Shown: piece after piece, positions 18,225-51,401 of the stretch | How the letters are laid out: the number at the start of each line of letters is the position of its first letter | How positions within the stretch are numbered: position 1 is the first letter of the stretch | From: Mycobacteriaceae bacterium | Lineage (GTDB): Bacteria > Pseudomonadota > Gammaproteobacteria > Burkholderiales > Burkholderiaceae_D | Assembly (NCBI GenBank): GCA_903970145.1 | Contig: CAJCHO010000113.1 | Coordinates: 1-64,000 of the forward strand | Length of the DNA: 64,000 nt | Direction: 5' to 3' | Position numbers and translations under genes: made by a program | The notes under the pieces: generated by a model | What the model saw: the letters and a program-made list of their open reading frames with translations, nothing else | Told to the model about the DNA's origin: nothing | The model's database searches: none

Positions 18225-19400
18225 ATGCAGGTCAACCGCAAAGGTGCAGTAGTCGCAATCGCGCTGGTTCTGGCGATCGGGCTCGGTACCTATTGGCGTC
18301 TGGCGGGAGCCGATCACAGTGCCACGCCTGCGAGCCGCGCCAGCGTCGCGCAGGACAGTATTGTCCTGACGGACAGGCAGCTGCAAAGCGTGAAGGTTGC
18401 AGCGGTTAGCGCGCACGCCTTCATCGAGCGGCGTGAAGCCTATGGCTACATCGATTTCAACCAGGATCGCTCGGTGCAGGTTTCTTCACCCTATGCCGGT
18501 CGCATCACCGCAGTTCACGCGGACCTTGGCAAGGATGTCGGCGAGGGCGCGGTGTTGTTCACCATCGAGAGTCCTGATCTCCTGGAAGCAGAGTCGAGCC
18601 TGATCACCGCCGCCGGCGTCATGGCGCTGTCTGACAAAACGCTTGAGCGTGCGCGCACGCTCATCAAGGATCAGGGCGTCGCGCAAAAGGAACTCGAGCA
18701 GGCGATTTCCGACCAGCAGAGCGCCGAGGCCGCCTACCGGGCCGCGCGCGATGCGGTGCTGGTGTTTGGCAAGACCGACGCTGAGCTTGATCTCATGATC
18801 GCGAGTCATCACACAGACTCGACCATGCTGATTCGGGCGCCGTCGCCAGGTCGAGTAACTGCGCGTAACGCCGCGGTTGGCCTCTTGGTGCAGCCGGGCA
18901 TGACGCCGCCGCCATTCGTGATCAGCGATATTCAATCGGTGTGGCTGATTGCCGCGGTCACGGAGGAGGACCTGCCGCTCATTCGTCTTGGACAGAAAGT
19001 CGAAGTGACGCTTGCCGCCTTGCCGGGCCGCTCCTTCGATGCCACGGTCACCAATATTGGCGAATCCGTGGATTCGGCCACGCGACGCATCCTCGTGCGC
19101 TCAGAGATCAAGGACCCGCGCCACGAACTGCGCCCGCAGATGTTCGCCAATTTCGTGATCCTGACCGGTCATCCGGTCAGCTCACCGGCCATCCCGGCCG
19201 CCGGACTAGTGCGCGAGGGCGACGGCACGATCATCTCCTGGGTAACTACGGACCACAAGCGCTTTGTGCCGCGCCAGGTCCAGGTGGGTATGGTCGAGAA
19301 CGGCTTTACCCAGATCCTTGCCGGAGTTGCGGCCGGTGAAGAGGTAGCGGTCGAGGGCGCCGTCTATCTAAGCAACGCCCTCGCAATGGCGAACCAATGA
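18225..19400 (+). CDS. Efflux membrane-fusion protein, CusB/HlyD type
   Basis: Periplasmic adaptor of 391 residues that would link an inner-membrane transporter to an outer-membrane channel. Anchor helix about 9-27; barrel-sandwich start SPYAGRITAVHADLGKDVGEGAVLF; alpha-hairpin about 125-190 (AAGVMALSDKTLERARTL); then LIRAPSPGRVTARNAAVGLLVQPG, and a beta-barrel with the LRPQMFANFVIL motif typical of the CusB/CzcB branch. The RND pump expected next to such an adaptor is missing: the next gene is the outer-membrane factor. No His- or Met-rich metal-binding stretch is visible. Confidence 0.88.
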   Translation: MQVNRKGAVVAIALVLAIGLGTYWRLAGADHSATPASRASVAQDSIVLTDRQLQSVKVAAVSAHAFIERREAYGYIDFNQDRSVQVSSPYAGRITAVHADLGKDVGEGAVLFTIESPDLLEAESSLITAAGVMALSDKTLERARTLIKDQGVAQKELEQAISDQQSAEAAYRAARDAVLVFGKTDAELDLMIASHHTDSTMLIRAPSPGRVTARNAAVGLLVQPGMTPPPFVISDIQSVWLIAAVTEEDLPLIRLGQKVEVTLAALPGRSFDATVTNIGESVDSATRRILVRSEIKDPRHELRPQMFANFVILTGHPVSSPAIPAAGLVREGDGTIISWVTTDHKRFVPRQVQVGMVENGFTQILAGVAAGEEVAVEGAVYLSNALAMANQ

Positions 19401-19440
19401 GAGCGCACAACACTTCTCGTCGCCAGGATGGGAGACGCTG

Positions 19441-21042
19441 ATGTTGCGCCCTCTGATCCCGTCCCCCATCTCGAAGCATATTCGGTTTCTGCTCGGGCGG
19501 GTCGGATTCGCTGGCGCGCGAGCGACCGATTGCCCGGGAAAGATGATTCGCTCGCTTACCCGTCCTGTTTCACTGATGCCGTTGGCGGGCATCCTCGTCG
19601 CGAGCGGCTGCGCCGTGGGACCCGATTTCAGGGCACCTGAGCCTCCGGTCGATGAGGGCTATACCCGTGAATCGGTGGCGCCAGCGCCCTCGGCCAATAC
19701 GACTGCGCAGGTCATCCAAATCGGCGCGGATGTAAGCGCGAACTGGTGGACGGTGTTTGGCTCGGACAAGCTCGACAAGCTGGTGGAACAGGCCCTCATG
19801 AGCAATCCATCGATCGATTCGGCCAACGCGGCACTGCGCATCGCCCAGGAGAACACCAACGCACAGCGTGGCAATTACTTCCCGACCGTTGAGGCACAGT
19901 ACTCCCCGAGCCGCCAGCGCAATCCGGTAGGTACCCTCGCTCCCACGCTCAGTTCGGGAGCACCGGTCTATACCCTGCACACCGCGCAACTGACGATCAG
20001 TTACGTCCCGGACGTATTCGGACTCAACCGCCGCCAGGTCGAGTCACTCGAAGCGCAGGAGTCGTCGCAGCGCGCCCAACTGGCGGCGGCACGCGTGTCG
20101 CTCGAAACCAATGTCCTTGCGGCCGCATTTCAACGCGCCACGCTCGAAGCCCAGGTGGAGGCCACGCACGCGATGATCGATGCGCAACGCGACAGCCTGA
20201 AAATCATCGAGCGACAGCGTACCGTCGGCTACGCCGCAGGGCTTGATGTCGCTGCGCAGGAAGCAGCGTTAGCGCAAATGGAAGCGACTTTGCCCCCGCT
20301 GGAGCGGCAGCTCGAGCAAGCGCGTGACCTCTTGGGAGCGCTCGCGGCGAACAATCCGGCCGCCACCCTGCCGACGATCGGTCTTGACGACATCAATCTG
20401 CCGCGCGAACTGCCGCTGAGCGTGCCGGCGCGCCTCGTAGTACAGCGGCCGGACGTGCGCAGCGCGCTCGATCAATTGCATGCTGCCACCGCCGAGGTGG
20501 GGGTTGCCGATGCGGATCTGCTGCCGCAGTTATCCATCACCGGTGCCTATGGCGGCGTGGCGACTCACGCAGCCGACATGTTCCGCGCTGACAACATTTT
20601 CTGGTCGCTGGTCGGTAGCGCCACCCAGACCTTGTTCGACGGAGGCACCTTGCTGGCTCGCCAGCGGGCGGCGCAAGCCGGCGTCGACCAGGCGCTCGCG
20701 CTCTACAAGATCACGGTCGTGCAAGCCATGCAGAACGTCGCAGACAGCTTGTATGCGCTCGAGACTGACGATCGCGCGATGCGCGCGAATCTGCGCGCCG
20801 AGAATGCCGCTCGTTCCAGTCTTGATTTGACCCGTCGCCAGTTTGAAGCCGGTTACAGCACGGCTCTAAACCTGTTGGCTGCGCAATCGACCTACCAGCA
20901 GGCCGTATTGAACCGCGTGCAAGCACGCGGCACATGGCTAGCAGACACTGCGGCGCTGTTTCAGGCGCTCGGTGGCGGCTGGTGGAACGACCCCGGATTG
21001 CTAGCGAGCAACAGCAGTCCCTCCAGTCACACTGATCACTAA
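19441..21042 (+). CDS. Outer-membrane efflux lipoprotein, NodT/OprM family
   Basis: TolC-like outer-membrane factor of 533 residues. Lipobox LVASGC with Cys at residue 57, followed by AVGPDFRAPEPP, typical of NodT-family factors. The repeated TolC domains appear as NWWTVFGSDKLDKLVEQAL and the second-half RPDVRSALDQLHAATAEVGVADADLLPQLS. A good GGGAGA site stands five bases before the ATG at 19441, but this makes a long leader before the lipobox. ATG at 19543 would give a conventional 22-residue signal peptide with a weaker ribosome site. It lies 40 bases after the adaptor gene. Confidence 0.88.
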   Translation: MLRPLIPSPISKHIRFLLGRVGFAGARATDCPGKMIRSLTRPVSLMPLAGILVASGCAVGPDFRAPEPPVDEGYTRESVAPAPSANTTAQVIQIGADVSANWWTVFGSDKLDKLVEQALMSNPSIDSANAALRIAQENTNAQRGNYFPTVEAQYSPSRQRNPVGTLAPTLSSGAPVYTLHTAQLTISYVPDVFGLNRRQVESLEAQESSQRAQLAAARVSLETNVLAAAFQRATLEAQVEATHAMIDAQRDSLKIIERQRTVGYAAGLDVAAQEAALAQMEATLPPLERQLEQARDLLGALAANNPAATLPTIGLDDINLPRELPLSVPARLVVQRPDVRSALDQLHAATAEVGVADADLLPQLSITGAYGGVATHAADMFRADNIFWSLVGSATQTLFDGGTLLARQRAAQAGVDQALALYKITVVQAMQNVADSLYALETDDRAMRANLRAENAARSSLDLTRRQFEAGYSTALNLLAAQSTYQQAVLNRVQARGTWLADTAALFQALGGGWWNDPGLLASNSSPSSHTDH

Positions 21043-21066
21043 CTCTCAACCTATCCGCAGGCTACC

Positions 21067-21738
21067 GTGACTCTACGAATTGTTCTTGTCGAAGATGACG
21101 CGCAGTTCGGCGCCTACCTGCAAAGGGCTCTGGCAGCCGATTCCCACGAAGTCGGCTGGGAGCGCGAAGCCCAGGCGGGCGAGCGCGCCTTGCGCCAGAA
21201 TCCACACGACCTGGTGGTGCTGGATCTGCGCCTGCCGGATCGCGCAGGCATTGAGATGCTGGTGCGCTACCGCGCTCGTGGTGGCGCGGCACCGATACTC
21301 GCGATCGCCGCCAACAGTACCCCGAGCGACCGCGTCACGGCGCTGGATGCGGGAGCCGACGATTTTCTGTGCAGGCCCTTCGAGAGCGACGAATTATTTG
21401 CGCACATTCGGGCCCTCTTGCGGCGACCGACGCGACAGACGGTGGCGCCAATCCACTATCGCGGCATCACGCTGGATCCAGCGCGCCACGAAACCTTCGT
21501 CTACGGCGTGCGCGTCGATCTGCCACCACGCCAGTTCGCAGTCCTGCATGCCCTGATGAACCAGCCGGGACACATTGTCACCCACGAGGAGTTAAAGGAG
21601 CGTCTCTACGGTCTCGGGGACGAACCCGACAGCAATCCGCTGGCGGTATTCATCCACGAGCTACGCGACAAGCTCGGACGAAATTCCATCACGACTGTAC
21701 GTGGTATCGGTTATATCCTCTCGGGACACGCCGACTAG
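21067..21738 (+). CDS. Orphan OmpR-family response regulator, atypical receiver
   Basis: A 223-residue two-domain regulator. The receiver keeps the acidic pocket (E9, D10) and the phospho-acceptor D53 in VVLDLRLPD, but the conserved switch Thr/Ser is Ala81 (AIAANSTP) and the conserved Lys is Arg103 (FLCRPF). The winged-helix output domain (about 125-220) ends with KLGRNSITTVRGIGYIL, the QseB/PmrA-like recognition and wing region. No histidine kinase gene is adjacent. It is the third gene of the MFP/OMF operon, 24 bases after the OMF gene, starting at GTG. Confidence 0.88.
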   Translation: MTLRIVLVEDDAQFGAYLQRALAADSHEVGWEREAQAGERALRQNPHDLVVLDLRLPDRAGIEMLVRYRARGGAAPILAIAANSTPSDRVTALDAGADDFLCRPFESDELFAHIRALLRRPTRQTVAPIHYRGITLDPARHETFVYGVRVDLPPRQFAVLHALMNQPGHIVTHEELKERLYGLGDEPDSNPLAVFIHELRDKLGRNSITTVRGIGYILSGHAD

Positions 21739-22497: not shown

Positions 22498-23202
22498 ATG
22501 TCGTCGGTTACCCTCAAGCAGGTCGGTCGCACCTATCGGCTCGACGCCATCGAAGTACCGGCGCTCATCGACATCAATCTCGAAATCGAGCCGGACCGTT
22601 TTACGGTGATCTCGGGACCCTCAGGCAGTGGCAAGACGACGCTTTTGAACCTGATTGGGTGCATCGATCGTCCCAACCGCGGTGAGATCAGTGTGGCCGG
22701 CCAGTCGGTGCAGACCCTGTCGGACGACGCCCTGTCGGACTTTCGCGCGCGCAACATTGGCTACATCTTCCAGAATTTCAATCTCCTGCCGGTTCTGACG
22801 GCTTTCGAGAATGTCGAATATCCGCTGCTCTTGGCGCGGGTAGCGGCGGGCGAACGCAGGCGCCGCGTGCTCGAATTGCTCGATGCGGTCGGTCTGGCGG
22901 ACAAGACAAAGAACCTGCCAGGTCAGCTCTCGGGCGGTCAGCGACAGCGCGTCGCGATTGCGCGTGCGCTTGCCACGTCGCCGCAATTGATCCTGGCCGA
23001 CGAGCCCACTGCGAATCTGGATAGCCATACGGGTTCGGCCATCATCGAGCTGATGCGCAAGATGCAACGCGAGCATCACGTGTCATTCGTTTTTTCCTCG
23101 CACGACCCCAAGGTCCTCGCTGAGGCCGACGATGCCGTGCTGATCCAGGACGGCCGGATCGCGGCCACGGAGCGCCGCGGCGCCACAGGGGGTGCTCTAT
23201 GA
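22498..23202 (+). CDS. ABC transporter ATPase, LolD/MacB type
   Basis: ATP-binding subunit of 234 residues. Walker A GPSGSGKTTLLNLIG, Q-loop YIFQNFNLLPVLTAFENVEYPLLL (the LolD/MacB pattern), signature LSGGQRQRVAIARALA, Walker B LILADEPTANLD and the H-loop SSHDPKVL are all intact. This subfamily drives mechanotransmission through FtsX-like permeases rather than substrate channels. Its stop overlaps the permease start by four bases (ATGA). It is the first gene of a five-gene envelope cassette. Confidence 0.93.
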   Translation: MSSVTLKQVGRTYRLDAIEVPALIDINLEIEPDRFTVISGPSGSGKTTLLNLIGCIDRPNRGEISVAGQSVQTLSDDALSDFRARNIGYIFQNFNLLPVLTAFENVEYPLLLARVAAGERRRRVLELLDAVGLADKTKNLPGQLSGGQRQRVAIARALATSPQLILADEPTANLDSHTGSAIIELMRKMQREHHVSFVFSSHDPKVLAEADDAVLIQDGRIAATERRGATGGAL

Positions 23203-24587
23203 AGACATTCTCGCTCGCCTTGCGCAACCTGTTGCGCAACCGGCGCCGCTCGGTGACAACCCTGATGGCAATGGTGGTGGGTGCGATCGCCATTCTGCTT
23301 TTTGGTGGCTATATTACGGACATCAAATATGGTTTGCAGACGGGTTACGTGCAGCGCGGCGGTCACCTGCAGATCCAGCACAAGGACTATTTCCTGTTTG
23401 GTAGCGGTAACCCCGGCGCCTATGGGATTCGCGATTACAACCGGATCATCGAGGTGCTAAAGCAGGATCCCGAACTCGCGCCGCAGCTTGCGGTGGCGTC
23501 GCCGACCCTGCAGATCGGTGGCATCGCCGGCAATTTCGCTGCGGCGGTCTCGCGCACGATCTATGCGACCGGCATCGTGGTCGCTGACCAGAACGAGATG
23601 TTCAAATGGAATGAATACCGCTTCCCGTTCAAGCCGCGCCAGGCGGCATTGACCGGCACACCACCTGACTCCGCCGTCATCGGCACCGGGGTCGCCCGCG
23701 TGCTGCAGCTGTGTGCTACGCTGCAGGTGCCGGATTGTCCCGACGCCCCTGCGGCCCCTGCCTCCGACCAGGGCACACCCCTGCCTGCGGACGTGGCTGA
23801 CCTCGCTCAGGGCGCGGCGCCGCCGCACAAGGGCGACGACAATCGGATCGAGATCCTTGCCGCCAATTCCCACGGCGCCCCGAATGTCGCCGCAGTCAAG
23901 GTGGTGCGCGCGTCCTATCAGGGCGTCAAGGAGCTTGACGACGTTTTCGTCGCCCTGCACCTGAGCCAGGCGCAGCGCCTGGTTTACGGCGGCGAGACAC
24001 CGGAGGCGACCGCCATCATTCTCCAGTTGCATCGTACCGAGGACATCCCGGTGGCCCGGGCGCGCGTCGAGCAGCTGCTTGCCACGACTTTCAAGGGCGA
24101 GCCGCTAGAGGTCCAGGACTTCACAACCCTCAATCCATTCTATGGCCAGACCATGGCAATGTTCGCGGTCCTGTTTACCTTTATCGCTTCCCTGATCGGC
24201 GCCATCGTGCTCTTCACGGTCAGCAACACCATGAGCATGGCAGTGGTCGAGCGCACCTCGGAAATAGGCACGCTGCGCGCCATGGGGCTGCGCCGCTCAG
24301 GCATTCGCAGATTGTTCCTGACCGAAGGGTTTTTCCTGGGAGTTCTGGGGGCGGTGCTTGGCATCGTCGCTGCCCTGTTTCTTGCCATGCTCATCAACTC
24401 GGCCGGATTCACCTGGACACCGCCCGGACGGGTCGAACCGGTACCGCTGACCGTGCGCGTATGGGGAGAATCGACGATGATCCTCGTGACCGCCGCGGGT
24501 CTTGTGATCGTCGCCGCGCTTTCAGCGACCTGGCCGGCGGTGCGCGCCGCCCGGCTCAATATCGTAGATGCACTGCGCCATGTTTGA
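23199..24587 (+). CDS. FtsX/LolC-type ABC permease
   Basis: Membrane subunit of 462 residues with the MacB/LolCE topology: one N-terminal transmembrane helix (about 20-40), a large periplasmic domain (about 45-315), then three helices in the FtsX domain (about 320-455). The opening SLALRNLLRNRRRSVTTL and the C-terminal ERTSEIGTLRAMGLRRSGIRRLFLTEG with PAVRAARLNIVDALR are typical. An Ala/Pro-rich insert (PDAPAAPASDQGTPLPADV) lies in the periplasmic domain. There is only one permease gene, so it should act as a homodimer. Confidence 0.9.
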   Translation: MKTFSLALRNLLRNRRRSVTTLMAMVVGAIAILLFGGYITDIKYGLQTGYVQRGGHLQIQHKDYFLFGSGNPGAYGIRDYNRIIEVLKQDPELAPQLAVASPTLQIGGIAGNFAAAVSRTIYATGIVVADQNEMFKWNEYRFPFKPRQAALTGTPPDSAVIGTGVARVLQLCATLQVPDCPDAPAAPASDQGTPLPADVADLAQGAAPPHKGDDNRIEILAANSHGAPNVAAVKVVRASYQGVKELDDVFVALHLSQAQRLVYGGETPEATAIILQLHRTEDIPVARARVEQLLATTFKGEPLEVQDFTTLNPFYGQTMAMFAVLFTFIASLIGAIVLFTVSNTMSMAVVERTSEIGTLRAMGLRRSGIRRLFLTEGFFLGVLGAVLGIVAALFLAMLINSAGFTWTPPGRVEPVPLTVRVWGESTMILVTAAGLVIVAALSATWPAVRAARLNIVDALRHV

Positions 24588-25395
24588 TACCCGTGCAAGT
24601 CATCGTATCCGTTTGCTGGCGCGCCACTCGCTCACCGGTCTCGTTGCTGTCGCCGGGCTGGCTTTGGGCACCAGCGCCCTCGCTGCGCCCGATGCGCAGC
24701 AGATCCTCGCCGCGAGCGATGCCGTGCGCAATCCCGCAAAGCCGTTTGGCGTAACCGTTAACCTGCTCGAGTATCGTGACGGCAAGCAAACCGATGGCAA
24801 TACGCTATTCGTGTATTCGAAGGCGGACCCTGCGAGCGGCCAGTTTCGCAGCCTGATCCGTTTTGTTGCGCCCGCGCGCGATACCGACAAGCTGATGCTA
24901 AAAAACGGTAACGACCTGTGGTTCTTCGACCCTTCCTCCAAGGCTAGCATCCGCATCTCTCCCCAGCAGCGCCTGCTAGGTCAGGCGTCCAATGGCGACG
25001 TGGTGACGGTAAATCTGGCCAAGGATTACAAGGCGAGCCTGCTTGCCGAGGAAGACGTCAAGGATGGGGAGCGCCAGATGCGCCACTGCTACAAACTGGC
25101 GCTGGCCTCGGTGAGCACCGATGTGACCTACGACCATATCGAGATGTGGATCGATGAGGCCAGCAGCCGGCCGGTCAAGGCCCTGTTCTATACCGAAAGC
25201 AATCGCCTCCTGAAGACCGCCTACTATCGGCATTTCGAATCGGAACTGGGTGTGGAACGTCCGACAGAAACCATCATCATCGACGGCCTTGATCCGAACT
25301 GGGTGACCATCATGCGCTACTCGAGCTACGCCTGGCGGGACATTCCCGATTCGTGGATGCAGCGCGACTATCTGCCGCGTTTCAAGCCCGAGTGA
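24580..25395 (+). CDS. LolA-like outer-membrane lipoprotein-sorting protein
   Basis: Periplasmic carrier-like protein of 271 residues, of the LolA-like family found beside lipid or lipoprotein exporters rather than the housekeeping LolA. A signal peptide ends near SALA|APDAQQIL; then LFVYSKADPASGQFRSLIRFV, DLWFFDPSSKASIRISPQQRLLGQASNGD and the C-terminal SSYAWRDIPDSWMQRDYL. ATG at 24580 overlaps the permease stop by eight bases; ATG at 24568 in the same frame is the alternative. Probable role: take a lipid or lipoprotein from the ABC complex and carry it across the periplasm. Confidence 0.82.
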   Translation: MFDTRASHRIRLLARHSLTGLVAVAGLALGTSALAAPDAQQILAASDAVRNPAKPFGVTVNLLEYRDGKQTDGNTLFVYSKADPASGQFRSLIRFVAPARDTDKLMLKNGNDLWFFDPSSKASIRISPQQRLLGQASNGDVVTVNLAKDYKASLLAEEDVKDGERQMRHCYKLALASVSTDVTYDHIEMWIDEASSRPVKALFYTESNRLLKTAYYRHFESELGVERPTETIIIDGLDPNWVTIMRYSSYAWRDIPDSWMQRDYLPRFKPE

Positions 25396-25397
25396 GG

Positions 25398-26654
25398 ATG
25401 CTTCCCCGTGCATTCATGGGGCTGGTATGTGCCCTTATCGTTGCAAGTGCTTGGGCTCAAAGCGATGATGAGGGCGCGTTGCAGCTGGCCGACAAGGCCC
25501 CCGAGCAGGCGACGCAATCGCGCGACTGGCGCGCATTCGTCGAGACTGGCTTCGACGGTGTGCGCCTGCGTGACGGGCAGGGCTCGCAACTGGGCGAACG
25601 CGTATCCCTGGACGGCTTCGTCGATGGGCTGATCGCTCCCTCCCTGCGCTACGTCGTTTCCGACCGGCTTGACCTCGAGCAATCGGACCATCCGGATGCA
25701 CGGGACAACTACAACACCCTGAAAGAGGCTTACCTGAGCTGGCAATTGTCGCCGGAGGCGCTTCTGGACGCGGGGCGCATTAATCTGCGCTATGGCGTGG
25801 CACTCGGATACAACCCCACCGATTTTTTTCGGGGCGATGCGATTCGCTCGATTGTTTCCCTCGATCCGAGCAGCCTGCGCGAAAACCGTCAGGGTAGCGT
25901 CGTCGTTCAGGGTCAGGCGCTAAGTGACTCGGGCTCGGTATCGGTGCTATTTTCACCAAAGATTAATACCGTCCCGACCACCGCCGAATTCTCGCCCGAT
26001 TGGGGAGCGACCAATAGTACCGATCGCTGGTTGATCGTTGCCAGTCAAAAGGTCAGTGAACAGTTCTCGCCACAATTGCTCGTGCTCGGCCAAAGTCATG
26101 AGTCGGCCCAGTTGGGTGCCAACCTCAGCGGCCTGCTCGGTAACGCGACGACAGGCTACCTCGAATGGACCGGCGGCGAGGGGCCGACGCTGCTCGGCAG
26201 TTTCGATCCAGCCTTTGCGCAGGACAGCTTTCACCAGCGCGCCGCTTTCGGCGCGACTTACGCCACGGACTTCAAGCTCTCAGTCACGCTCGAATACGAG
26301 CTCAACACGGCAGGCCTTGATGGCGCGCAATTTCACCAGCTCGCGCAAGGCCATCTGTCGCTGCTCGGACCCTTTCTCGAATACTCGACCGTCGAGCAGG
26401 ATCTGCCGATTACGCGTGCCTGGTTCATGGATCTGAGCTGGAGCGACCTGGCGATCCAGCACCTGGACATCTCGAGCTTTGTGCGCTTTGACCCGGTGAC
26501 TCACAGTCACCTGACATGGGGCGAGCTGCGCTATCACTGGGACCGGGCGGATCTCGCCTTGCAGGTAAGCTGGTACGGCGGGGCTTCGCATAGCTTGTTC
26601 GGTCTTGAGCCCGACGAGCGCACCGTCACGGTCTTGCTAAGATACTTCCTCTGA
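25398..26654 (+). CDS. Predicted outer-membrane beta-barrel protein of the ABC cassette
   Basis: A 418-residue exported protein. Signal peptide MLPRAFMGLVCALIVASAWA, then an acidic segment and a long alternating-hydrophobicity region with barrel-like strands ending in aromatic residues (RYGVALGYNPTDFF, ELRYHWDRADLALQVSWYGG), and a terminal TVLLRYFL consistent with a BAM signal. I do not recognise a named family; it resembles porin-like proteins found beside LolA-like carriers. ATG at 25398 follows the carrier stop directly, so the genes are cotranscribed. Probable role: terminal outer-membrane component of the cassette. Confidence 0.65.
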   Translation: MLPRAFMGLVCALIVASAWAQSDDEGALQLADKAPEQATQSRDWRAFVETGFDGVRLRDGQGSQLGERVSLDGFVDGLIAPSLRYVVSDRLDLEQSDHPDARDNYNTLKEAYLSWQLSPEALLDAGRINLRYGVALGYNPTDFFRGDAIRSIVSLDPSSLRENRQGSVVVQGQALSDSGSVSVLFSPKINTVPTTAEFSPDWGATNSTDRWLIVASQKVSEQFSPQLLVLGQSHESAQLGANLSGLLGNATTGYLEWTGGEGPTLLGSFDPAFAQDSFHQRAAFGATYATDFKLSVTLEYELNTAGLDGAQFHQLAQGHLSLLGPFLEYSTVEQDLPITRAWFMDLSWSDLAIQHLDISSFVRFDPVTHSHLTWGELRYHWDRADLALQVSWYGGASHSLFGLEPDERTVTVLLRYFL

Positions 26655-26700
26655 AGTGGTCGTGAAGCGCCGCTCGCTGGCGCACCGAAATGGAGCCGGT

Positions 26701-27225
26701 ATGCAATTGCACAAACGCGCTCGCGCCTGCGCGCTCATGATGTCCCTTATCACGGCGAGCAGCGTCGTCCTTGCTGCGCCGGACCCGGTCAGCGAGGCGG
26801 TCGCGCCGAGCGATGACGCGGGGCCACTGGTACTGCAGTCGGTGTGGATCAATCCGGGGGTTTTCTCGCTGCACTTTAACCAGGGCTACGGCTATCGCCA
26901 GGACAACTGGGGCATCGGTGGTCAGCTGAACTTCAATCACGACCTTGCTTTGCTCGGGGGCAGCTTTATCAACAGCAACGATGCCCGCTCGCACGATGTC
27001 GGCATACTGTGGCAACCGCTCGAATGGGGGCCGTTCAAGATAGGCGCAGTCGGCGGCGGTTTTGACGGCTATCCGAACATGGAGAATGGTGCCTGGTTTC
27101 CTGCTGTCCTGCCCATGGTCAGTACCAGCTACGAGCGCATCGGAGTCAATTTCTCGATCGTGCCCAATTACAAGAATCGCCTCCACGGGGCCTTCGTGAT
27201 CCAGCTGATCGGACGGGTCTGGTAG
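26701..27225 (+). CDS. Secreted protein of unknown function
   Basis: A 174-residue protein with a clear signal peptide ending VVLA|APDPVSEAV. A TGGAG ribosome site lies seven bases before the ATG at 26701. The mature part is rich in Gly, Asn and aromatic residues (FNQGYGYRQDNWGIGGQLNF, GAVGGGFDGYPN) and ends VIQLIGRVW, an aromatic C-terminus like that of small outer-membrane barrels. I do not recognise the family. It begins 46 bases after the barrel gene and probably belongs to the same operon. Confidence 0.65.
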   Translation: MQLHKRARACALMMSLITASSVVLAAPDPVSEAVAPSDDAGPLVLQSVWINPGVFSLHFNQGYGYRQDNWGIGGQLNFNHDLALLGGSFINSNDARSHDVGILWQPLEWGPFKIGAVGGGFDGYPNMENGAWFPAVLPMVSTSYERIGVNFSIVPNYKNRLHGAFVIQLIGRVW

Positions 27226-27248
27226 CGAATTCGCATTGAGGGATGACC

Positions 27249-27662
27249 ATGAGCAATCAATTGGCTTCTCTAAAGACACTTCTCGAACCCTTGTTTCCCG
27301 GATTGATGGGCATCGAGCTTCTCGAAGCGGGGCCCGAACGGGTATCTGCCCGCATGCTGGTCCGCGAAGACCTTTGCACGACCGGTCGCATCCTGCATGG
27401 GGGAGCCGCGATGGCATTTGCCGACACGCTTGGCGGAATCGGCGCATATCTCAAGCTCGGGCCAGGCGAGCGAACGACGACCATCGAGTCGTCGACCAAG
27501 TTCGTCGGCGCCGCAGCTGCGGGTACGCATGTGACAGGCGAGTGCACGTCCTTACATAGCGGGCGCACGACGACGGTCTGGCAGACCATGATTCGCCTGG
27601 AATCAGGTCGTCTGTGCGCGGTGGTCACCCAGACCCAGCTGGTGCTCGCGGCGAAGCCCTGA
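27249..27662 (+). CDS. PaaI-family hotdog thioesterase
   Basis: Single hotdog-domain acyl-CoA thioesterase of 137 residues. Typical pattern: GRILHGGAAMAFADTLGGIGAYL carries the HGG motif and the catalytic acidic residue (D), followed by TTTIESSTKFVGAA. It hydrolyses small acyl- or aryl-CoA esters. GAGGG lies six bases before the ATG at 27249; an ATG six bases earlier is too close to it. Follows the secreted-protein gene by 23 bases, so it may be read through from the ABC cassette, although its function fits the acyl-CoA genes downstream. Confidence 0.85.
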   Translation: MSNQLASLKTLLEPLFPGLMGIELLEAGPERVSARMLVREDLCTTGRILHGGAAMAFADTLGGIGAYLKLGPGERTTTIESSTKFVGAAAAGTHVTGECTSLHSGRTTTVWQTMIRLESGRLCAVVTQTQLVLAAKP

Positions 27663-43568: not shown

Positions 43569-45020
43569 ATGAATGCATCTGAATCCCGCAGTACCTCGGG
43601 CGCCCGCTCGCGCGACCCATCCTCGTTTGTGGCCTTGGCGCGCCATCGTGGCGTGTCGCTTCCCTGGGTGGTTGGCGTGGTGCTGCTGGTCGCCCTGGTG
43701 ATCGGGGCGTGGTTCTACTTTCACTCGAGTGGCGACGGCAGCGCTAACGGCGCATCAGGCGGCACGAACGCTTCCGGGGCGGCCGGCGCCGGTGGTGGCG
43801 CCCCCGGAGCTGGAGGTGGCGGCGCTTCCGGCAAGGGCAAGCGCGGTCCGGGTGGGGCCATGCCGCCGGCGCCGGTGGGCGTGGCAACGGCAAAGCAGTC
43901 CGACTTGAAGGTGTATATCGATGGCCTGGGATCGGTAACCCCGCGCGCCACTGTCACCGTGCACACCCAGGTGGCTGGCCAGTTACTGCGCGTGCTGTAT
44001 CAGGAAGGTCAGATGGTGCATCGGGATCAGTTGCTTGCCGAAATCGATCCGCGACCTTTCCAGGCCGCGCTCGATCAGGCGCAAGGTACGCTGATGCGCG
44101 ACCAGGCGCTGCTCGACGAGGCGCGTATCGATCTGGTGCGCTACACCACTCTATTTGCCCAGGACTCGGTGGCCAAACAAACGCTGGATACCCAGGTCGC
44201 TCTGGTACGCCAATATGAGGGAACCGTTAAGACCGATCAGGGTGCGCTGGATGCGGCGCGCGTGAACCTCACCTATACGCGCATTACGGCACCGGTGGCC
44301 GGAAGGGTCGGCCTGCGTCAGGTCGATCCGGGCAACCTCGTGCAGATGAGCGACACCAATGGCATCGTCATCATCACCCAGCTGCAGCCGATCGACGTCG
44401 AATACATCATTCCGCAAGACGATATTCCGCGTGTCACGCGTGCCATGCATGGCAAGGAGCCGGTTGCTGTCGATTCGTTTGATCGCGAGAACAAGAACAA
44501 GCTCGCCAGCGGTGCGGTCCTGACCATGGACAACCAGATCGATGTCACGACCGGCACGGTCAAGATGAAGGCGAGTTTTCCGAATCAGGATTTGGCGCTT
44601 TTCCCGAACCAGTTCGTCAACACCCATATGCTGGTCGAGGTATTGAAGGATGCGACGGTCATTCCAAGCTCGGCCGTGCAGCGCGGCTCGATAGGTACCT
44701 TTGTCTTCGCAGTTACGCCTGACAAAACGGTGACCGTGCATCAGATCAAGCTTGGTCCGAGCGACAAGGATTCGGTGGCGGTGGTGTCGGGGGTCAATGT
44801 TGGCGACGTCCTCGTAGTCGATGGCGCCGACAAGCTCAAGGAGGGCGCCAAGGTCGAGCCGATCGACCGCGCTGCCGCTGCGAGCGCACCGGCCGGCAAG
44901 TCAGGTGCCGAGGGCGGCGGCCACAAGCGGCGCGATGCCAGCGCTATCAAGGCCGAGCCGGGCGCGCCGGGCGCTGCACCCGCTGCAGACCAGAAGGCTG
45001 CTGCTACTCCGGGGCAGTGA
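43569..45020 (+). CDS. mdtA: RND efflux membrane-fusion protein, MdtA-like
   Basis: Periplasmic adaptor of 483 residues for the two RND pumps encoded next. N-terminal anchor helix (about 36-56), then an unusually long Gly/Ala/Ser-rich linker (about 58-95), the lipoyl part [37 protein letters not shown], a hairpin, [23 protein letters not shown] and a C-terminal tail rich in Ala, Lys and Gly. The MdtA-like features are [21 protein letters not shown] and [12 protein letters not shown]. The RND gene begins seven bases downstream. Confidence 0.92.
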
Positions 45021-45027
45021 AGCGCCC

Positions 45028-48000
45028 ATGAATCCGTCACGTCCTTTTATTCTCCGTCCGGTAGCGACATCGCTACTGATGGTGGCCATTCTATTGGCGG
45101 GGCTGGTCGCCTACCGGCTTTTGCCGCTCTCCGCGCTGCCCGAAGTCGACTATCCAACCATTCAGGTAGTCACACTTTATCCGGGAGCGAGCCCCGAGGT
45201 GATGACGTCCTCGGTGACGGCACCGCTCGAGCGCCAGTTCGGTCAGATGCCGGGCCTGAACCAGATGTCATCCTCGAGCTCCGGTGGCGCCTCGGTGGTC
45301 ACGCTGCAGTTCTCGCTCAATCTGTCGCTGGATGTCGCCGAACAGGAAGTCCAGGCCGCCATCAATGCCGCCAATAGTCTATTGCCGACCGACTTGCCGC
45401 AGCCGCCGATCTATAACAAGGTCAATCCGGCGGACACCCCGATTCTGACGCTCGCGATTACCTCGCCAACGCTACCGCTGCCCAAAATCGAGGATCTGAT
45501 CGATACGCGCATGGCGCAAAAGATCTCGCAGCTACCAGGCGTTGGCCTCGTGTCGATCAGCGGGGGCCAGCGACCCGCAGTGCGCGTGCAGATTAATCCG
45601 GCCGCGCTGGCGGGACTCGGGGTGGGCATCGAAGACGTGCGCACGGCCATCGGCAACGCCAATACCAATCAGGCCAAGGGCAGCTTTGATGGACCCGAAC
45701 GCGCTTCGACCATCGATGCCAACGACCAGCTGAAGTCGGCGGCGGAGTACGCGGCGACTGTGATCGCCTATCGCAACGGCGCGCCGGTCTACCTGCGCGA
45801 CATAGCCGATGTCATCGATTCTGCCGAGAACAACCGGCTGGCCGCCTGGACCAATGACAATCCGGCGATCATTCTGAACATTCAGCGTCAGCCGGGCGCC
45901 AACGTCATCGAAGTGGTCGATCGCGTCAAGAAGCTCTTGCCGGCGCTCCAGTCTTCGCTACCCGGGGCGCTCAATGTGACGGTGTTGAGCGACCGCACAG
46001 TGACCATTCGCGCTTCGGTCAATGACGTCGAATTCGAGATGCTGCTGGCCATCGTGCTGGTGGTGATGGTGATCTTCGTATTCCTGCGCAATGTCGCGGC
46101 CACCATTATCCCGAGCATCGTGGTGCCGCTGTCCCTGGTCGGAACCTTCGGCATCATGTATCTCGCAAATTTCTCGATCAATAACCTGACGCTCATGGCG
46201 ATGACGATTGCCACCGGTTTCGTGGTCGATGACGCGATCGTGATGATCGAGAATATTGCGCGCTATATCGAAGACGGTGAGAAGCCCCTCCAGGCAGCCT
46301 TGAAGGGGGCCGAGCAGATCGGATTTACCATCATTTCGCTGACGATCTCGCTGATCGCCGTTCTGATCCCGCTCTTGTTCATGGGCGACGTGGTCGGGCG
46401 TCTGTTTCGCGAATTCGCGATTACGCTCGCCGTTGCGATCCTGATTTCGGCCTTCATCTCGCTCACGCTCACGCCCATGATGTGCGCGCGCCTGTTGCAT
46501 CACACACCCGAGTCGCAGCAAGGCTGGTTCTTTCGCAAGACCGGTAAGTTTTTTGACGACGTCATTGAGCGCTATGGCGTGGCACTGAACTGGGTGCTCG
46601 AACACCGCGACGCAACCCTGGTCGTGGCGCTGGGCACGCTGGTGCTGACAGCCCTGTTGTATCTGTTCATTCCCAAGGGCTTTTTTCCGGTCCAGGACAC
46701 CGGCCTTATTCAGGGCATCACCGAGGCACCGCAATCGATTTCGTTTCCGGCGATGGCCGAGCGCCAACGCCAGATCGCCCAGGTGGTCCTCCAGGATCCT
46801 GCGGTCGAGAGTCTGAGCTCCTATATTGGCGTGGACGGGACCAACACGACATTGAATAGCGGGCGCATGCTGATCAACCTGAAGTCGATCGATGAACGCA
46901 ACATCTCGGCCTCTGACGTGATTCGTCGCCTGCAACCCAAACTCGACAAGCTGGTTGGCATCTCGCTATTCATGCAGCCGGTGCAGGATCTGACCATCGA
47001 GGATCGTGTCTCGCGCACCCAGTACCAATTCACGCTTGAGGATTCGGACCCGGACGAGCTCGCCAAGTGGGTTCCGCAGCTGGTCGATAGCCTGCGCGAG
47101 TCGTCACAGCTGGCTGACGTGGTAAGCGATCTGCAGAACCGGGGCTTGCAGGCCTACATCGAGATCGATCGCGACACCGCTGCACGCCTTGGCATCACTG
47201 CCTCCGCAGTCGATCAGGCGCTCTACGATTCGTTTGGCCAGCGCCTGGTCTCGACCATCTACACCCAGTCGAACCAGTACCGGGTCGTGCTCGAGGCCAA
47301 GCCGAATCTGCAGCAGGGCCTTGAATCGCTTACTGGCATCTACGTACAGACGCCGTCAGACGGCCAGGTGCCCCTGTCGTCGATCGCGCGCGTCACCGAG
47401 CGACCGGGCTCACTGGTGATCAGCCACCTCGGGCAGTTCCCGGCCGCAACTATCTCGTTTAATCTCGCGCCGCGCGCTTCGCTTGGCGACGCAGTGGATG
47501 CGATCCGCGCCGCCGAAAAGAAAATGAAGTTGCCGGCTTCGATACAGACGAGTTTCCAGGGGGCAGCGCTGGCCTTCCAGGCGTCGCTGAGCAACACGCT
47601 GCTGCTGATTCTCGCCGCAATCATCACGATGTATATCGTGCTCGGGGTGCTCTACGAGAGCTACATCCATCCGGTCACGATCCTCTCAACCCTGCCCTCG
47701 GCGGGGATCGGTGCCTTGCTGGCCTTGATCGTCAGCGGTAATGATTTGGGCATCATTGGCATCATCGGCATCATTCTGCTCATCGGTATCGTAAAGAAGA
47801 ACGCGATCATGATGATCGACTTCGCAATCGATGCCGAACGTCACCAGGGCAAGAGCGCACGGGATGCTATCTACCAGGCCTGCCTGTTGCGTTTTCGACC
47901 GATCCTGATGACGACCATGGCGGCTCTCCTCGGGGCGTTGCCTTTGATGCTCGGTTCCGGCTATGGCGCGGAGCTGCGCCGCCCGCTCGGTGTCGCGATG

Positions 48001-48150
48001 GTTGGAGGCCTTTTGGTCAGCCAGGTCCTGACGCTATTCACGACGCCTGTCATCTATCTGGCTTTTGACGGCCTGGCCGCGCGCGTCAAGGCGCGCTGGG
48101 GCCGTTCGGAGCCCGACGAATCTGAAGACGCAGTACCGGCCGAGCGATGA
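45028..48150 (+). CDS. mdtB: RND multidrug efflux transporter, MdtB-like
   Basis: Inner-membrane proton-driven pump of 1040 residues, HAE-1 family. It begins [44 protein letters not shown], as MdtB does; TM4 has [21 protein letters not shown] with the Asp pair for proton transfer, and [24 protein letters not shown] and the C-terminal [15 protein letters not shown] are typical. ATG at 45028 is the family start; the frame is open upstream inside the adaptor gene. Its stop overlaps the second pump gene by four bases (ATGA), consistent with MdtBC heteromers. Confidence 0.94.
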
Positions 48151-51100
48151 ACCCTTCCCAGCTTTTCATCGAGAGACCGGTAGCGACCACGCTGCTGACG
48201 ATCGGACTTGTTCTTGCGGGAATCGTCGGATTTCAGCTTCTGCCGGTTTCGCCGCTGCCGCAGGTCGACTTCCCAACCGTCTCGGTGCAGGCGTCTCTGC
48301 CGGGAGCAAGTCCCGAGACCATGGCCGCGACCGTGGCAACACCCCTGGAGCGCTCGCTCGGGCGCATCGCGGGGGTGACCGAGATGACCTCGTCGAGCAC
48401 CCTCAGCTCGACGCGCATCACCCTGCAATTCGATCTGTCGCGGGACATCGATGGCGCGGCGCGCGATGTGCAGGCTGCCATCAATGCCGCCTACGCATTG
48501 CTGCCGACCGGACTGCCGTCCAATCCGACCTATCGCAAGGTCAACCCGGCGGATGCGCCGATCATGATTCTGGCGATGACGTCCGACACGCTTACGCAGG
48601 GGCAGATGTACGACTCGGCCGATTCGATCCTGGCGCAAAAGCTTTCGCAGGTTGAGGGGGTGGGCCAGGTGACGGTCGGTGGCAGCTCCAAACCGTCGGT
48701 GCGCGTCGAGCTCGATCCGAATTCGCTCAACAAATACCGCATCGGACCCGAAACGGTTCGCGGCGTGATAGCGGCGACCAACGCCAATCGGCCCAAGGGC
48801 TCGATCGAGCGCGGCGAGATGCACTGGCAAATCTATGCAAACGATCAGGCCGACACGGCGGCCGAATACAAGCCACTGATCATCGGCTACAACAAGGGGG
48901 CGCCAGTGCGCCTGGCCGATGTGGCGACGGTGGTCGACTCGGTGTCTGATCTGCGCAATGCCGGCATGTCCAATGCCAAGCCCTCGGTGCTGCTGGTCAT
49001 CAATCGCTCGCCCGGTGCCAATATCATCGAAACGGTCGATCGGATCTATGCGCTCGTGCCCGCACTGCGCGCATCGATCCCCGGGGCGATCTCGCTGGAC
49101 GTCGTGATGGATCGAACGCCGACCATCCGGGCGTCGCTGCACGATGTCGAGCGTACGCTCCTGATTTCGATAGCACTCGTGATCCTGGTGGTGTTCCTGT
49201 TTTTGCGCAACGGCCGCGCTACCCTGATTCCGAGTGTGGCCGTGCCCGCTTCGCTGATTGGCACCTTCGCGGCGATGTATCTGCTCGGCTACAGCCTCGA
49301 TAATCTGTCGCTGATGGCAATCACCATCGCGACCGGCTTTGTGGTCGACGACGCGATCGTGGTTCTCGAGAATGTCTCGCGCCACATCGAGCAGGGCATG
49401 ACGCCGCGTGACGCCGCTTTGCGCGGCGCGCGCGAGGTCTCGTTCACCGTGTTCTCGATGAGCCTCTCGCTGATCGCGGTTTTCATCCCGATTCTGCTCA
49501 TGGGTGGTTTGGTAGGCCGGCTGTTTCGCGAATTCGCCGTCACCCTGTCGGTGGCCATCCTGGTCTCAATGGTGATCTCGCTGACGACCACACCGATGAT
49601 GTGTGCACGCCTGCTGCGTGCGCGTTCCCAGAAGAAGGCCCCGTCGCGATTGTTCCTGGCGAGCGAGCGGGTGTTCGACGGGATGCTGGACGGCTACACG
49701 CGCTCGCTTGCCTGGGTTCTGCGCCACAGTCCGCTCATGCTGGTGGTGACGCTGGCGACAGTGGTACTGACAGTCTATCTGTACGCCATCGTTCCGAAGG
49801 GCTTTTTCCCGCAGCAGGATACCGGGCGGATCATCGGCAATGTCCAGGCGGATCAGGCCATCTCCTATCAGGCGATGGTCGTCAAGCTCACCGAGCTCAT
49901 GAAGATCGTCAACGCCGATCCTGATGTGGCCAATGTGGTCGGCTATACCGGTGGCGGACAGCGCAACTCGGCGTTCGCCTTCATCACGCTCAAGCCGCTC
50001 GGTGAACGCAAGCTGGATTCGGAACGAGTCATCGCCCGGCTGCGTGGCAAACTGTCGCACGTTTCAGGCGCGACTCTGTTTCTGCAATCGGTTCAGGACA
50101 TTCGGGTCGGGGGGCGGGCCAGCAATGCGCAGTATCAGTTCACGATCCAGGCCGACGACATCGACATTCTGCGTGCCTGGGAACCGAAGATCCGCGCGGC
50201 CTTGAATGGTTTGCCGGAACTGGTGGACGTTAACACCGACACCCAGGACAAGGGCCTGCAAACCAGTCTGGTGATCGATCGCGACACGGCGATGCGATTT
50301 AATATCTCGCCGGTCCTGATCGACGCGACCCTAAATGATCTCTATGGTCAACGTGAAGTCTCAACGATCTACAAGGCCATCAACCAGTACTACGTGGTCA
50401 TGGAGGCCGCGCCACCGTTCTGGCAGCGACCTTCGATCCTCTCGCAGACTTACGTCAGCGTGCCCTATGCGACCAATCTGGCGCAGGCGGTCCCGGTCTA
50501 TGGCGCGACAGCCAGCACCACGACGAGCCTGAACCCGGCCTCCACATTCCAACCCGTCGCGAGCTCGAGTTCGGCGGCCACCAGCGCCAATCCCCAATCG
50601 CTGCCCCTGAGCGTGCCGCTGGCCTCGTTTGCCAGCTACAAACCAACCAATACGGCACTGGCGGTCAACCACCAGGGTCAGTTCGTGTCCTCGACCATTT
50701 CCTTTAATCTGCCACCGGGCATGTCCCTTGGCACGGCCTCGGCTGCCATCGCCGCGGCCCTCGATCACATCGGCATGCCGTCATCGGTGCATGGTGCGTT
50801 TGCCGGAACGGCACAGGCTTTTCAGGCGTCGCTTTCGAACCAGCCGATATTGGTACTGACGGCGCTGTTGACCGTCTATATCGTGCTCGGGATGCTCTAT
50901 GAGAGTTATGTCCACCCATTGACCATTCTCTCGACCCTGCCGTCTGCGGGCGTCGGGGCGCTGCTGGCGCTCCTGATCACTGGTACCGACTTCAGTCTGA
51001 TTGCCCTGATCGGGGTGATTCTGCTCATCGGGATCGTGAAGAAAAATGCCATCATGATGATCGACTTCGCCCTTGCCGCGCAGCGTGCCGGCAATACCAC

Positions 51101-51401
51101 GCCGGCCAAGGCAATCTACAAGGCCTGCCTGCTGCGCTTTAGGCCGATCATGATGACCACCATGGCGGCCATGTTTGGCGCTATCCCACTGGCCATCGGT
51201 ACCGGCAATGGCGCCGAGTTGCGCCAGCCGCTGGGCATCTCGATTGTGGGCGGCCTCTTGGTGAGCCAGCTGCTCACGCTCTACACCACACCGGTGGTAT
51301 ATCTTTATATGGACCGCGCGCGGCTTGCGGTTGCGCGCCTTCTGCAGGCCCATCGCGCGCGTCGTCGCGCCAGCGTTGCGCCTGCCACGAATGCGATTTG
51401 A
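48147..51401 (+). CDS. mdtC: RND multidrug efflux transporter, MdtC-like
   Basis: Second RND pump, 1084 residues. It keeps the TM4 motif [44 protein letters not shown] and [15 protein letters not shown]. It is about 40 residues longer than its neighbour because of a Ser/Thr/Ala/Pro-rich insert at about residues 770-835 in the periplasmic docking region (for example [20 protein letters not shown]). MdtB and MdtC-like pumps form a mixed trimer. The OMF gene follows ten bases after the stop. Confidence 0.94.

Follow-up and report, generated by a model that had tools for sequence, protein, structure and literature searches.

The means by which specialised lipids cross the periplasm and reach the outer membrane are known for few systems, namely Lol, Lpt and Mla. 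In the Lol system the Hook and Pad of the permease recruit the carrier LolA, and the heterocyst glycolipid exporter DevBCA-HgdD employs a MacB-type ABC (ATP-binding cassette) pump for an envelope glycolipid. Homodimeric LolDF is the common form of the Lol pump (PMC11784454), and for the aryl polyenes (APE) export by the RND pump ApeM, the LolA-like ApeL and the LolB-like ApeN has been proposed (PMC8253772). Here we describe a cassette of four genes, g1 to g4, in a 64,000-nucleotide stretch of contig CAJCHO010000113.1 (the window), which encodes an ABC ATPase, a single FtsX-type permease, a LolA-like carrier and a predicted outer-membrane beta-barrel. These genes are a real, conserved four-gene unit, and on balance they probably serve as a dedicated route by which an amphiphilic product of lipid type is exported.

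The cassette belongs to a run of five open reading frames (ORFs) at 22498-27225, all co-directional on the + strand and separated by overlaps or short gaps, just as an earlier note made from the sequence had described. The ATPase gene g1 (22498..23202; 234 amino acids, aa), which is LolD/DevA/MacB-like, shares 4 bases with the permease gene g2 (23199..24587; 462 aa), whose end is in turn overlapped by the start of g3 (24580..25395; 271 aa, with an alternative start at ATG 24568), coding for the secreted carrier. The barrel gene g4 (25398..26654; 418 aa) begins at an ATG placed 2 bases past the g3 stop, the listed GTG 25353 falling within g3. The fifth frame, gene 5 (26656..27225), is PagP-like.

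The order of the four genes is not due to chance, since it recurs in dozens of divergent genomes. In a carrier-selected set, for which the 80 best-matching loci were taken from 346 carrier relatives found in named genomes (MAG_BA346 contributing two loci), the g4 barrel follows the carrier in 79 of the 80 loci, and the single exception has only 51 bases left before the contig edge. The ATPase lies near the carrier in 74 of these loci and the permease in 73, the misses being partly contig ends, with the ATPase of L088 placed on the opposite strand. L046 (Noviherbaspirillum denitrificans TSA40) and L069 (Chitiniphilus shinanonensis) are examples of named loci that possess the complete set of four. 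A barrel search gave matches in 20 of 300 genomes of the order, the window's own counted, and in the barrel-selected set of 20 wider regions (the window itself and genome G150 left out) all four genes stand in order in 17, the other three (L037, L038 and L041) being lone barrels. A third set, consisting of the 40 regions with the best matches from the family and phylum samples, whose genomes are partly shared with the named set, contained the permease in 37 regions, the ATPase in 36 and a barrel detectable with a hidden Markov model (HMM) in 34. Spacing is likewise tight: with starts chosen by script, ATPase and permease genes overlap in 64/67 cases, and gaps of at most 30 bases separate permease from carrier in 45/63 and carrier from barrel in 53/63. 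Tree distances of the four proteins are also correlated (r 0.69-0.87, computed for 51 of the 80 loci), as common descent alone can also produce. Carriers of the PF17131 type (alignment A2) occur in 47/195 genomes of the family and 99/398 of the phylum, the own genome counted in both; as the weaker of these carriers include other contexts, the unit is patchy and both values are upper bounds.

Two minor contexts were seen in these sets. The lone barrels of L037 and L038 are paralogous, with 28-30% identity, and have a LuxR-type regulator, thioesterase-like and ketoacyl-synthase genes nearby (partly by eye). In L236 and L238 a lone carrier lies close to a parE-looking gene (by eye).

The earlier note had taken the two last genes of the run to belong with the ABC genes. 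This holds for the barrel and fails for gene 5, which was found beside the carrier in 0/80 named and 0/40 further loci, 7 of the 80 having less than 1.4 kb downstream and some of the 40 ending at contig edges. Gene 5 was therefore counted as a neighbour, and the idea of a five-gene unit was rejected, while the remainder of that interpretation, a separate route with a single permease, its own carrier and its own barrel, is upheld by the data below.

At the family level, g1 matches ABC_tran in Pfam (PF00005, E 4e-34) and its best NCBIfam models are DevA (214.8 bits) and LolD (213.8 bits), a near tie in which each score stays under its own cut-off (295.8 bits for DevA and 307.75 bits for the LolD equivalog). 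The DevC cut-off is not reached (11.8 against 290.35 bits). The permease g2 matches FtsX (PF02687, E 1.5e-13) and remains far from the LolC/E equivalog cut-off (79.5 against 362.45 bits). Its AlphaFold2 model (pLDDT 88.8) nevertheless has a predicted fold of the LolC/LolE type, with LolE as the closest structure (9xro_E, Z 26.2, root-mean-square deviation 4.9, 362 residues; 9rld_E, Z 25.1). The five best LolE chains give Z values of 23.5-26.2 over 362-384 aligned residues and are followed by MacB (Z 21) and FtsX (Z 19). Two cysteines of g2, C172 and C180, are invariant in 62/62 aligned permeases; the model places them in the stretch that links the first long helix to the second, where they perhaps form a disulfide.

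The carrier g3 matches LolA_like (PF17131, E 9.6e-37) and no other Pfam family, LolA (PF03548) included, at E up to 0.1; the PF03548 matches of the host genome are on other contigs. A related structure has been solved (3buu, NE2245, E 1e-39). For g4, the barrel foreseen in the earlier note was borne out by modelling, with a mean pLDDT of 91.2 and 18 strands of at least 3 residues. The model is predicted to adopt the 18-stranded OprD/AlgE-type fold, its best structural matches, porins of the OprD, OccK and BenF kind with Z up to 23.2 and AlgE with Z 22.4, having ~300 residues aligned at an identity of about 8-12%. Although the predicted fold is shared with AlgE/OprD-family barrels, searching the window g4 against the families of Pfam, NCBIfam and PHROG gave no match at E up to 0.1, and a few of 17 members of its family give weak porin-type Pfam matches (best 2.1e-4). 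An aromatic residue is last or next to last in 70/71 relatives of g4, and a lipobox-like motif is present in 1/71.

On other contigs of the host draft genome (3.47 Mb in 135 contigs, 94.55% complete) LolA is matched strongly and LolB is matched as well, and further ATPase/FtsX pairs lie on contigs C110, C111 and C131. With LolA and LolB matched elsewhere, the cassette seems to supplement the Lol pathway, not to replace it, in line with the separate route postulated before. Like Lol (LolDF or LolCDE, LolA, LolB), it comprises an ATPase, a permease of predicted LolE fold and a carrier of the LolA superfamily; it differs from Lol in that the curated cut-offs are missed, the carrier belongs to PF17131 instead of PF03548 and a barrel is conserved. 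The presence of a single permease is in itself not unusual, LolDF homodimers being the usual Lol pump (PMC11784454). With DevBCA-HgdD the cassette shares an ATPase that scores equally with DevA and LolD, whereas here too the cut-offs are missed, and the conserved set has a soluble carrier and a porin-like barrel; a fusion protein and a TolC-like duct, of which the window has an orphan pair upstream, are absent from the neighbour clusters common to at least 4 of the 80 loci. As the curated cut-offs of both systems are missed, the cassette was filed neither as Lol nor as DevBCA, and it probably works like both.

The closest parallel is the APE module, which is likewise proposed to join a dedicated inner-membrane pump, a LolA-like carrier and an outer-membrane receiver; in the cassette the PF17131 carrier gene adjoins the permease. 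The differences concern the engine (RND in the APE module, ABC ATPase plus FtsX permease in the cassette), the receiver (LolB-like in the former, a predicted 18-stranded barrel in the latter) and the surroundings, as the APE module is encoded with fatty-acid-type biosynthesis genes and the cassette usually has no biosynthetic gene found alongside. By analogy, the cassette is best read as a candidate exporter that would be driven by ATP and otherwise parallel the aryl polyene system of RND, LolA-like and LolB-like parts, a barrel taking the place of LolB. The zeamine transporters were considered as a known relative and rejected, since the part of the report at hand (PMC3547906) describes export genes of the HlyD/ABC and ABC-2 types and mentions neither a carrier nor a barrel. 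No paper on the four-gene set was found in a search without most subscription papers and preprints, which is weak evidence of absence. Elsewhere in the host genome, on contig C58 (92448-100546), LolA is matched a second time, more weakly, no more than 10 kb from two ketoacyl-synthase genes; this may be an aryl-polyene-like cluster.

Relatives of the permease and carrier extend to Alphaproteobacteria, Vibrio, Enterobacterales and Bdellovibrio, and the HMMs match every distant member tested. In a plasmid collection 24 records had a carrier match (eight of them near-identical Aliiroseovarius records), of which 11 were inspected, nine being annotated there. The order ATPase, permease, carrier and hypothetical protein was found in 7/9 (Paraburkholderia, Aliiroseovarius, Enterobacter, Rahnella, Plesiomonas, Vibrio and E. 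coli G8), with a small extra gene separating ATPase from permease in Enterobacter and Rahnella. A Klebsiella locus shows an Enterobacter-like cluster with the carrier and barrel genes annotated as pieces, and in the Bdellovibrio locus the carrier stands first. The g4 HMM recognises the protein following the carrier in Aliiroseovarius (1e-39), E. coli G8 (3e-25) and Vibrio (4e-11).

Four of the seven ordered plasmid loci (Paraburkholderia, Enterobacter, Rahnella and E. coli G8) lie amid fatty-acid or polyketide genes, a setting that had escaped the earlier note. Four kinds of cluster can be distinguished. The first, with acpS, FabZ, acyl carrier protein (ACP), ketoacyl synthase (KS) and FabD, is OI-47-like and found in E. 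coli FORC_044 and Enterobacter, while Klebsiella and Rahnella have KS and FabD with ACP or aminomethyltransferase genes. The second, on an E. coli plasmid, contains a short-chain dehydrogenase/reductase, ACP, FabZ, KS and FeeM, by its Pfam name an N-acyl amino acid synthase; a related set is present in L223, a genome of the window's own family (FeeM 3e-98, KS 1e-147, FabZ 2e-70). The third combines polyketide synthase (PKS), P450, flavin monooxygenase (FMO) and phosphopantetheinyl transferase (PPTase) genes in Paraburkholderia, with PKS and PPTase in two Burkholderia, and the fourth consists of a large PKS that bears KS, seen in Janthinobacterium fluminis and in a Polaromonas metagenome-assembled genome. 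In the FORC_044 locus, adhesin and fatty-acid genes accompany an ATPase, a permease, a LolA-like gene with an annotated frameshift and a secreted protein of 462 aa; by this gene content it would be OI-47, described as an adhesin and fatty-acid biosynthesis locus (PMC5567499). Compared with the cassette, OI-47-like loci have a highly diverged barrel candidate and an extra small gene between ATPase and permease. The permease-carrier-barrel segment of Enterobacter has matches in 375/5,426 E. coli genomes, all at 60-80% identity, the surroundings being read in FORC_044 only; the G8 type occurs in 2/5,426.

The export of a lipid-type product by g1 to g4 is supported by the families of the genes, the folds predicted for their products, the conservation of their order, the LolA and LolB matches found elsewhere in the genome and the location of some relatives within fatty-acid/polyketide clusters. 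In this scenario g2, acting as a homodimer, would be driven by g1 and would make contact with g3, which may shield the acyl part of the cargo and ferry it across the periplasm; the putative 18-stranded barrel g4 would then take the cargo and insert it into, or pass it through, the outer membrane, so that transport would run outwards. The presence of AlgE, itself an exporter, among the best fold matches of g4 was counted for lipid export, as was the LolE-like fold predicted for g2. The earlier note had left the cargo as a lipid or a special lipoprotein. The fatty-acid, polyketide and FeeM neighbours of some relatives favour a lipid, and the simplest reading is that, where the cargo can be guessed from neighbours, it would be acyl-based, probably differing between lineages.

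Several observations weigh against this proposal. No ketoacyl-synthase-type gene adjoins the cassette in the window. A BLAST search with 13 biosynthetic probes found a neighbour in 6/80, 2/20 and 2/40 loci of the three sets, counts from stretches of unequal length with no random-locus baseline, and both such loci among the 20 are lone-barrel loci. Most cassettes are thus alone in the stretches seen, or stand by regulators or sugar-nucleotide genes. Regulators adjoin other loci: a kinase and a LytTR regulator are annotated just downstream in the Vibrio and Plesiomonas plasmids, the Aliiroseovarius locus adjoins a two-component pair, and kinase-like and response-regulator genes were seen by eye beside 7/80 named loci, all of which would also fit sensing or a stress response. 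In 6/80 loci (L059, L076, L086, L087, L090 and L091) the ATPase directly precedes the carrier and no permease was detected. Finally, the g4 HMM fails on the barrel candidates of Enterobacter (E 0.74), E. coli FORC_044 (3.3) and Bdellovibrio (no match), and OI-47-like barrels need the E. coli G8 type as an intermediate to be linked to g4 (probability 88%). An additional PF00109 search covered 22 hand-picked genomes, four of them chosen for acyltransferase neighbours, from which no enrichment is derivable.

Sugar-nucleotide genes lie beside 11/80 loci (by eye). UDP-sugar dehydrogenase-like genes follow in five of the six loci without a detected permease, and in some permease-bearing loci (by eye).

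A second lipoprotein-sorting route, in which a LolDF-type pump would hand one or a few special lipoproteins to g3 and the barrel would anchor or surface them, is the alternative that survives best and yet appears unlikely. The nearness of the g2 fold to LolE and the place of g3 in the LolA superfamily speak for it; against it stand the LolD and LolCE cut-offs of NCBIfam, missed by far, the absence of a Pfam LolA match for g3 at the threshold given above, and the neighbours that hint at a cargo, which are acyl-chain enzymes. In addition, no lipoprotein gene is prominent among the recurrent neighbours, on which no lipobox scan was made. Slightly less probable still, the cassette could serve efflux or the envelope-stress response, clearing toxic amphiphiles of own or foreign origin under the control of a linked two-component system that switches it on. 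The kinase and LytTR genes of the Vibrio and Plesiomonas plasmids and the similar pairs at 7/80 loci are consistent with it, MacB builds drug-efflux pumps (PMC5985334), and self-protection is conceivable beside PKS clusters; however, a soluble LolA-like carrier suits delivery to a membrane better, and no membrane-fusion or TolC-like gene of the window recurs in at least 4 of the 80 loci. It is very improbable that the g1/g2 pair works with the orphan fusion and efflux proteins whose genes lie upstream (18225-21042), making up a pump of the MacAB-TolC or DevBCA kind. The co-directional orientation of those genes and the lack of a pump-sized ORF next to them speak for it; against it, they have no counterpart in the neighbour clusters common to at least 4 of the 80 loci.

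The export route proposed for g1 to g4 may have wider relatives. Among ten weaker carrier matches, picked by hand, five come with an RND-sized protein (~770-810 aa; RND by size and eye), the carrier and a ~400-aa protein with a C-terminal aromatic residue, three with two FtsX permeases, an ATPase and a barrel-like protein, and two with neither layout. The RND and two-FtsX layouts suggest an exchangeable engine. A homology of the RND-type third proteins to g4 was unsupported (probability 1.9%), a further point of tension, and the barrels of the two-permease type are weakly linked (7.4% to g4, 48.6% to the Vibrio type). Tentatively, and with the odds somewhat against it, a general, modular class of Gram-negative lipid exporters can be proposed, in which the engine is exchangeable (an ATPase with one or two FtsX permeases, or RND), the carrier is of the PF17131 type and a barrel of ~400 residues in the outer membrane acts as lipid acceptor or surface outlet; this class would handle many specialised acyl products and would include an unrecognised transporter in the OI-47-like E. 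coli locus. If true, the cassette would be a compact and testable system of four genes with its own barrel, found widely if unevenly and accompanied in several lineages by fatty-acid/polyketide factories. Genomes could then be mined with it for hidden envelope lipids, among them those made by E. coli loci so far described as fatty-acid biosynthesis and nothing more.

With regard to the genes around the cassette, the earlier note had called gene 5 a secreted protein with an aromatic C-terminus; the ORF is there, with ATG 26701 as the likelier start, and its PagP likeness had been missed. It matches the PagP family of PHROG (E 1.7e-9) and does not reach the gathering score of Pfam PagP (E 0.09, 12.6 bits against 24). 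The aligned rows of its family conserve a serine-x-histidine and an asparagine-serine pattern, and it is possibly a relative of the lipid A acyltransferase. The family occurs in 70/195 genomes of the host family, the window's own counted; where a genome has both carrier and gene 5, they were seen by eye on different contigs of these drafts, or ~77 kb apart in G820. A 4HBT thioesterase gene (27243-27662) follows after a gap of 17 bases and was likewise rejected as part of the cassette (0/80 and 0/40 loci).

On the upstream side, the orphan HlyD-type membrane-fusion protein and outer-membrane efflux protein (OEP) are followed by an OmpR-type response regulator, the group (18225-21738) ending ~760 bases before g1; no ORF of at least 200 aa, as a pump candidate for the pair, lies between 17023 and 18225. 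Further downstream, at 43569-51401, the window encodes an MdtA/MdtB-type RND efflux system, whose adaptor and first pump reach the NCBIfam cut-offs.

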